This document shows, piece by piece, positions 40,288 through 41,215 of a DNA stretch of 64,000 bases; position 1 is the first letter of the stretch; each line of letters starts with the position of its first letter. Source of the DNA: Candidatus Poribacteria bacterium. GTDB taxonomy: Bacteria > Poribacteria > WGA-4E > WGA-3G. The stretch lies in the NCBI GenBank assembly GCA_012270865.1, contig JAAXHL010000037.1, positions 59,250 to 123,249 of the forward strand, given 5' to 3'. Under the pieces are notes generated by a model. That model searched no databases and had not been told where the DNA came from. It saw only the letters and a list, made by a program, of their open reading frames with translations. The translations under genes were made by a program, and so were the position numbers.

Positions 40288-41022
40288 ATGCCGTATATCG
40301 GTACGTGTCTGCTTATTTGCACGTACCTGTTGATCGGGTTGTCGGTCCCGTTCACGTTTCGTGAGGCGGCACTGCGGACGCAGACAAGTGCGTTTAGTGA
40401 AGAGGGGATCGTGCGAACCCGCAAATTGCTTGAAAACGCAGGATTGCCAGCCGAAGCACCGCTTGATCAACTTGCATCGAAACGGAAACTGCGAAAGGGA
40501 CAGCATGTTTTACAGAGCAAGTGCGTCGTCTGCCACGACCTACGCACGATTCTCGCGAAGCCACGCATACCGACAGATTGGGTGCGTCTCGTTAATCGGA
40601 TGGCGATAAAACCGATGATCGGTGAACCGATTCATCAAGAAGAGGAGTGGACAGTCTCGGCGTATCTTATCGCGATTACGCCGGATATTCAGGTCTCGGC
40701 GCGCCAGCAGCGGCAAGAACAGATGCGGGCAGATGAGGCGAAAATCGCCGTTCAGACCGCAACTGTCGCCATGGAAATGGAAGCCACAACCGGTGTAGCA
40801 GCCGTTGCTTATGATGAAGTGGAGGCGAAAGCACTCTTTGAGGACAGATGCTCGCAGTGCCATGCTCTTACGGACGTTGAAGACTATCCGCCTCGTTCTG
40901 AAGAGGAGACAACCGAACTCATAACGCGGATGATAGATATCGGACTCTATCTTGAAGAGGAAGAGATTGAGATAATTACGCGCTATATTAATGAAAATTA
41001 CCTGGTAAGTCAACTACCCTAA
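40288..41022 (+). CDS. Diheme c-type cytochrome
   Basis: CVVCH and CSQCH heme-binding motifs, N-terminal signal/TM; stop codon lies in the left-end hairpin of the IsrB element. Confidence 0.8.
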   Translation: MPYIGTCLLICTYLLIGLSVPFTFREAALRTQTSAFSEEGIVRTRKLLENAGLPAEAPLDQLASKRKLRKGQHVLQSKCVVCHDLRTILAKPRIPTDWVRLVNRMAIKPMIGEPIHQEEEWTVSAYLIAITPDIQVSARQQRQEQMRADEAKIAVQTATVAMEMEATTGVAAVAYDEVEAKALFEDRCSQCHALTDVEDYPPRSEEETTELITRMIDIGLYLEEEEIEIITRYINENYLVSQLP

Positions 41023-41036
41023 GCTAAAGCATAGGG
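41017..41036 (+). repeat. Left-end hairpin of IsrB-bearing element: CCCTAAGC-TAAA-GCATAGGG
   Basis: Same structure as 42234-42253 with a compensatory T-A/C-G change. Confidence 0.75.
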
Positions 41037-41215
41037 CTTGTGCGAAGCGCATGCCAAGCGTCCACTCTACAAGTTAAACGGTTTTCTACAGTAAAATATC
41101 GCGGTCTCTTGGTGTGGCAACCATACAACGTTTCGGATGCTCCCCAAGTCTGATTTTCCTTAGAGACTGCGATCTGGATGGGGAAATACACAACCCGTAA
41201 GGGAGATTACAAACG
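41017..41215 (+). ncRNA. Candidate omega-RNA (OMEGA guide scaffold) upstream of IsrB-like gene
   Basis: Hairpin 41036-41059 (GCTTG-TGCG-aag-CGCA-tgc-CAAGC); 12-bp stem 41098-41109 ATCGCGGTCTCT / 41162-41173 AGAGACTGCGAT (one G.U); nested hairpin GTGTGG-caa-CCATAC 41112-41126. Confidence 0.6.

Follow-up and report, generated by a model that had tools for sequence, protein, structure and literature searches.

The question raised by this locus is what the structured leader in front of isrB is. In a 64,000-nucleotide stretch of DNA from Candidatus Poribacteria, a group of sponge symbionts (the whole stretch is called the window below), 193 nt separate a stop codon at 41022 from the ATG of isrB at 41216. 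The initial annotation, which had given the same gap, proposed that it carries an omega-RNA. In this study, we report that the leader is very probably a divergent, HEARO-like omega-RNA of IsrB group A, belonging to an IsrB OMEGA transposon. The identification was built on the fold of the RNA, the exact boundaries of the element, the rebuilding of the empty site from guide and target-adjacent motif (TAM), and an intact and conserved IsrB, all of which were observed directly.

Homologues of the leader were collected by BLAST from related genomes, and copies were found in 33 of 60, with up to about 15 per genome; all genomes compared were metagenome assemblies. The leader was conserved at 113 distinct isrB loci, and 58 diverse homologous leaders, all less than 88% identical, were aligned for covariation analysis (alignment A1). 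Conservation across the 113 leaders begins sharply at GTCAA, and upstream of that point the sequences of the copies are unrelated, which places the start of the structured unit at 41009 instead of 41017, where it had been drawn. With both pseudoknots included, 94.0% of the cells in the 58-leader alignment pair in the proposed structure, and covariation is present in all ten helices. Changes on both sides were seen at 31 pairs, giving 305 double-change cells, compared with 73 in shuffled alignments and 42-62 when the structure was slid by one to three columns. Covariation among homologous leaders had been named beforehand as the test of an omega-RNA at this position, and the result bears the proposal out. 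Minimum free energy was dropped as evidence for the RNA: the folding energy of the leader is unremarkable (z = -1.1; 27 of 200 shuffles equally good), and single-sequence folding is therefore no proof.

The helices are listed in Table 1. Double-sided changes were found in five of the seven S1 pairs, and in many sequences at all three pairs of SL4; two inner positions of S1 are mismatched in the window copy, as in about half of the family. The adaptor pseudoknot joins GCCA in the SL2 loop (41053-41056) to UGGC in the SL4 loop (41115-41118), with GC replaced by AU on both sides in 18 sequences. The nexus pseudoknot joins CCCCA in the SL5 loop (41142-41146) to UGGGG (41179-41183), and reads CCCCU/AGGGG in 17 sequences, the closing pair having changed from AU to UA. 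This pseudoknot had already been suspected, and the 12-bp stem 41098-41109/41162-41173 (S3) and a 5' hairpin at 41036-41059, which lies within the conserved and covarying SL2 region, had also been recognised; S1, SL1, the adaptor pseudoknot and SL7 are additional to these. A hairpin described earlier as GTGTGG-caa-CCATAC is indeed in the sequence at 41112-41126, but the conserved fold has the GGU/ACC stem of SL4 instead. As a functional fold it was rejected, being unconserved and in competition with SL4 and the adaptor pseudoknot.

Table 1. Features of the IsrB element and its flanks in window coordinates
Feature	Position	Strand	Evidence
Predicted 20-nt guide TAATGAAAATTACCTGGTAA; in the host flank, covering the final codons of the disrupted cytochrome c gene	40989-41008	+	Directly 5' of scaffold GUCAAC
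Complete IsrB transposon, non-autonomous	41009-42271	+	Empty sites, leaders, right-end census
Omega-RNA scaffold	41009-41203	+	Covariation on 58 leaders; HEARO match 41009-41189
S1 (41009-41015 with 41080-41086), enclosing SL1 and SL2 (guide adaptor region)	41009-41086	+	Covariation
SL1, left-end terminal hairpin CCCTA-agctaaagca-TAGGG	41017-41036	+	Covariation
SL2, loop GCCA 41053-41056	41037-41073	+	Covariation
S3, long stem (41098-41109/41162-41173), enclosing SL4 and SL5	41098-41173	+	Sequence, covariation
SL4, GGU/ACC (41111-41113/41120-41122), loop UGGC 41115-41118	41111-41122	+	Covariation
SL5, loop CCCCA 41142-41146	41133-41153	+	Covariation
SL7, CCCGUAAGGG, overlapping the isrB Shine-Dalgarno sequence 41200-41205	41194-41203	+	Covariation
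isrB, 342 aa; PLMP domain (LMP motif), RuvC, no HNH	41216-42244	+	Full-length DtIsrB match
Right-end subterminal hairpin CGGGCA..CCCCA-agctaaagca-TGGGG..TGCCCG	42223-42264	+	Conserved in isrB and ORF-less elements
TAM ATGA, right flank, outside the element	42272-42275	+	76 distinct sites; empty alleles

The protein encoded downstream of the leader matches DtIsrB (structure 8dmb) over its full length (E 9e-32), Pfam returned RRXRR only, and an HNH domain is absent from its 342 residues. D60, E153, H221 and D224 of RuvC and the LMP motif at residues 13-15 are invariant in 100 of 100 aligned sequences, and dN/dS of isrB against its relatives is 0.08-0.18, indicating purifying selection. IsrB is thus full length and, judged by its residues, catalytically intact; since the RuvC residues are invariant and dN/dS has these values, we take it to be in use. 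The genome carries two isrB copies. At the window locus, RuvC, PLMP and bridge helix occur without HNH, an omega-RNA lies directly 5' of the gene, and guide and TAM stand in the left and right flank, respectively, as in IsrB OMEGA systems.

The ends of the element were determined from empty sites, which were found by joining both flanks and searching relatives. A contiguous empty site was present in nine relatives, with the junction GGTAA/RTGAATAGG and neither duplication nor deletion; in the closest empty allele the junction reads GGTAA/ATGAATAGG, and the other empty alleles align gap-free or nearly so. The left junction falls exactly between 41008 and 41009, in agreement with the 113 leaders, and the right end agrees with 76 distinct insertion sites. 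Because the empty sites are contiguous, the element extends from 41009 to 42271 without target duplication and, because they fix its ends to the base, the guide is predicted at 40989-41008, its length of 20 nt being taken from DtIsrB. The guide had been expected in the left flank, among the last cytochrome c codons, and is found there, but the empty sites and the scaffold start move it from 40996-41016 to the interval given here. In the empty allele the guide sequence is followed by ATGA, and guide and TAM together reconstitute that allele. As read from the sequence, the cytochrome c C-terminus changes from ...NENYLV-NE-stop in the empty allele to VSQLP-stop after insertion. RTGA occupies the TAM position in eight of the nine empty alleles. 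At the 76 sites of isrB elements the right-flank motif is ATGA in 63, GTGA in 8 and ATGG in 5; the right-end search pattern demanded an NTGA- or RTGG-type motif, and a few copies with other motifs lie outside this count, including the second isrB copy of the same genome, which has ATAA at its right flank.

The element has subterminal hairpins, no target-site duplication and a fixed short target motif beside one end, as IS200/IS605-type elements do. A transposase gene (TnpA) is absent from the element, and none of the three Y1 transposase genes in the genome has ends matching it. Direct sequence comparison showed that the SL1 loop is the same as that of the right-end hairpin (42234-42253), and the left end must in any case serve transposition; SL1 is moreover dispensable for nicking (Hirano et al., PMC9581776). 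The shared loop and the dispensable SL1 would fit a leader that is merely the left end of the transposon, a set of DNA hairpins recognised by a Y1 transposase and not a guide RNA. DNA ends, however, would have no need of covarying S3, SL4, SL5, SL7 and two pseudoknots lying 60-190 nt inside the element, and the purifying selection on IsrB also speaks against this explanation, which we consider highly improbable. At the other end of the element, the right-end hairpin (42223-42264) overlaps the 3' end of isrB, and the codons for the conserved C-terminal HSSP of IsrB fall within it; the protein end and the transposon end therefore constrain each other.

In DtIsrB, the scaffold begins with GUCAAC directly after a 20-nt guide, the TAM is NTGA, and SL7 carries the Shine-Dalgarno sequence (Hirano et al. 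2022, PMC9581776). The Poribacteria locus shares the scaffold start, the NTGA TAM, a full-length homologous RuvC nickase without HNH, and S1, SL1, SL2, S3, SL4, SL5, SL7 with its Shine-Dalgarno sequence, and the adaptor and nexus pseudoknots. It differs in its host, in scaffold length (about 195 nt versus 262), in having neither SL6 nor SL8, and in its pseudoknot arrangement, which is of group A and not, as in DtIsrB, of group B. Group A, comprising CsIsrB, K2IsrB and BbIsrB, has pseudoknots between SL2 and SL4 and between SL5 and the 3' region (PMC9581776). No earlier report of an IsrB omega-RNA in Poribacteria was found in the literature consulted.

The Rfam HEARO model (RF02033) aligns end to end (1-211) with 41009-41189, at 22.6 bits (E 0.039), and three sister loci score 36-39 bits, with a maximum of 38.5 bits (E 2e-4). 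The gathering score of 83 bits is reached by neither the window leader nor its sisters, which places them outside RF02033 by the Rfam rule. The overall topology and the place 5' of an IscB/IsrB-type gene are those of HEARO; unlike HEARO, the gene beside the window RNA lacks HNH and the scores fall below the curated threshold. According to the model, the 3' strand of S1 is AGUUAAAC (41072-41079); this was rejected, as covariation puts that strand at 41080-41086. Across the whole window, tRNA was the only family found by Rfam at its gathering score, in a single gene at 21077-21148. Elsewhere in the window, two tandem and nearly identical 266-aa ORFs (38137-38937 and 39005-39805), which may encode phytanoyl-CoA dioxygenases, represent a recent duplication.

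For the omega-RNA, we propose that transcription of the host gene, probably from the host promoter, would enter the element from the left and yield one RNA composed of the guide (40989-41008), the scaffold (41009-41203) and the isrB message. IsrB would bind the scaffold and search for a guide match followed by NTGA, a combination expected only where the transposon is absent, that is, at an excised donor site or at an empty allele on another copy of the chromosome. At such a site it would nick the non-target strand, and the transposon would then be more likely to be copied back in. RNP formation, nicking and transposon retention are suggested by analogy with work on DtIsrB and TnpB.

Elements of about 440 bp without isrB occur in the same genus and keep a complete omega-RNA. 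The host genome itself carries five such ORF-less elements of 435-452 bp with ends like those of the isrB copies (L003, L004, L005, L006 and L007), as well as two truncated omega left ends with no clear right end (L008, G000:C26:751-833; L024, G000:C35:14265-14347). A covariance model trained solely on isrB leaders detected the complete omega-RNA (positions 1-208) in every intact ORF-less element at 101.7-198.6 bits, and the truncated left ends scored weaker, at 54.6 and 80.9 bits. The five elements of the host genome and ORF-less relatives found elsewhere (L229-L248 and L266-L278) combine a complete omega-RNA with a conserved 3' domain. A conserved ORF is absent from these elements; their longest ORFs (33-88 aa) neither resemble one another nor lie on a common strand, and this inconsistency rules out a coding explanation. 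Several elements (L004/L013, L019 and L003 flanks) have a further repeat nearby, CAGGACTTACGCAATTTTGACTTCGGCCC ... GCATGCGTAAGTCCTA, which looks like another miniature element.

The overlap of SL7 with the Shine-Dalgarno sequence could also be accounted for if the leader were a cis-regulatory structure of isrB, such as an attenuator or thermosensor, and a dual role as omega-RNA and cis-regulator is possible. As an explanation of the leader, however, regulation in cis is very unlikely, given that the complete RNA is kept, at the above scores, in elements that have no isrB. The omega-RNAs of the ORF-less elements may act in trans. Standalone omega-RNAs have been reported for IscB (PMC9581776, citing Altae-Tran et al. 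2021); as far as they are outlined there, they too are omega-RNAs without an adjacent protein gene, presumably acting in trans, and the ORF-less elements differ from them in being of IsrB type, about 440 bp long, bounded by both transposon ends and extended by a conserved 3' domain.

The 3' domain, of about 130 nt, lies behind SL7. Of 75 genomes of the order, 24 carry it, all in two genera of one family, and in none of the loci examined does it adjoin isrB. Unguided RNAalifold prediction gave GGGU-[CAGG]-UC ... GA-[AGCA]-GCCC, which reproduces the symmetric loop through which SRP RNA binds Ffh (UCAGG-UC/GA-AGCAG); the host's own SRP RNA reads GUCAGGUCCGGAAGGAAGCAGC. In helix 8 of SRP RNA, the A-C and neighbouring G-G/A pairs of this loop are universally conserved and contact SRP54 (PMC4605306). 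The 3' domain shares with domain IV/helix 8 (RF00169) the U.G-closed CAGG/AGCA loop, which contains the invariant A-C and G-G pairs, and a U-A and a C-G pair next to it; unlike SRP RNA, it has a lower stem of 3 bp (GGG/CCC), a variable hairpin of about 31 nt instead of the GNRA apical loop (GGAA in SRP RNA), and nothing of the remaining SRP RNA. The GGAA tetraloop of SRP RNA is needed for FtsY. Among 34 copies from the two genera, the CAGG strand is kept in 32, the AGCA strand in 33, and the loop as a whole in 31-32, and its closing pairs covary (GGG/CCC, GUG/CAC, GGA/UCC). The domain contains 103 double-change cells, compared with 37 in shuffled and 2-14 in slid controls. The alignment behind this count was fitted to the model, and more weight is therefore given to the unfitted alignment A2, in which the same pairs appear. 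The apex of the domain is formed by either of two interchangeable hairpins, of the GGATCGGAGATGGTGACAGCACTTCCG and the TATTAGACGGAAAGTGCGAGTTCTGTT type, which are exchanged among elements and whose loops share GUG[AC][CG]AG (alignments A2 and A3), suggesting that copies have recombined and that the loop has a conserved function.

Run against the 60 genomes, the exact 16-base pattern GTCAGGTC-N(5-34)-GAAGCAGC picked out the single SRP RNA gene in most of them; its remaining matches were the ORF-less elements and three sites put down to chance, and its reversed control had eight matches; a looser 13-base pattern was swamped by chance and uninformative. When the 3'-domain model was run on the host SRP locus with filters off, SRP domain IV ranked first (11.9 bits, E 0.03), and cmscan with the Rfam SRP model gave no match to the 3' domain at E up to 10. 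It is quite possible that the ORF-less elements are ordinary deletion derivatives, their SRP-like loop being a coincidence or an unrelated packing motif: non-autonomous derivatives are common, and the cmscan result and the hairpin that replaces the GNRA tetraloop are in keeping with this. Against it stand the retention of the loop in two genera while its flanking pairs covary, the occurrence of the 16-base pattern almost only in SRP RNA genes and ORF-less elements, and domain IV as the best match of the model in the SRP locus. A functional reading, suggested by the likeness of the loop and including binding of Ffh, would make the ORF-less members a bacterial counterpart of Alu, non-autonomous elements in which a working omega-RNA is joined to a decoy of the Ffh-binding SRP domain. 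The RNA would be kept at the ribosome exit by Ffh and could be loaded there onto nascent IsrB (or transposase) from another copy, a route replacing the cis-loading that isrB-carrying copies would get for free. We put this forward as a speculative and rather unlikely model.

Analysis of the 76 sites (loci L011-L204) revealed that insertions favour the gap between the Shine-Dalgarno sequence and the ATGA start codon of diverse host genes. The right flank opens an ORF of at least 60 codons in 49 of 76 sites, and a Shine-Dalgarno sequence at the right distance is also present in 27 of 76; both tests are passed by 28 of the 913 RTGA sites of the window (about 3%). With fixed-length flanks the proportions were 23/65 versus 44/1521 (odds ratio 18, p 3e-17). 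Among ORF-less insertion sites, 13 of 22 aligned copies precede an ORF of at least 60 codons, 7 of these also with a Shine-Dalgarno sequence. In one example, the left flank ends in the Shine-Dalgarno sequence (GAGGAGGAATCACAG) and the right flank is the gene start (ATGAGAATTC). The downstream proteins include a TonB receptor, a glycosyltransferase, a glutaredoxin, and ThiS-family, biotin-synthase-like and WD40 proteins. For one start-codon insertion, empty sites were found in more than 15 relatives, with Shine-Dalgarno sequence and ATGA contiguous in all 11 inspected; as at the window locus, the exact ends and the guide with its TAM follow from these empty sites. Gene interiors are avoided (3 of 28 insertions versus 951 of 1234 background sites), and such avoidance explains part of the enrichment only, which persists when non-genic sites alone are considered (8/25 versus 17/283, p 3e-4). 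The window copy lies at the 3' end of the cytochrome c gene, in the same direction as the gene. Insertion between Shine-Dalgarno sequence and start codon means that the guide is often a ribosome-binding site. A 5'-terminal guide would need transcription from outside, which a site behind a host promoter and leader would guarantee.

The window element is a well-supported, compact addition to the IsrB omega-RNAs. Elements that lack a protein gene and combine a full omega-RNA with an SRP-RNA-like loop would be unexpected to a specialist. If the loop binds Ffh, this would be, to our knowledge, the first bacterial mobile element to borrow the SRP, a case loosely comparable to primate Alu elements, which are SRP-derived. 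The systematic placing of insertions between a ribosome-binding site and its start codon is likewise unexpected, and earlier literature may already mention the pattern. Guides that are ribosome-binding-site sequences would be read from host promoters, and this makes the role of the IsrB nickase for the transposon directly testable.
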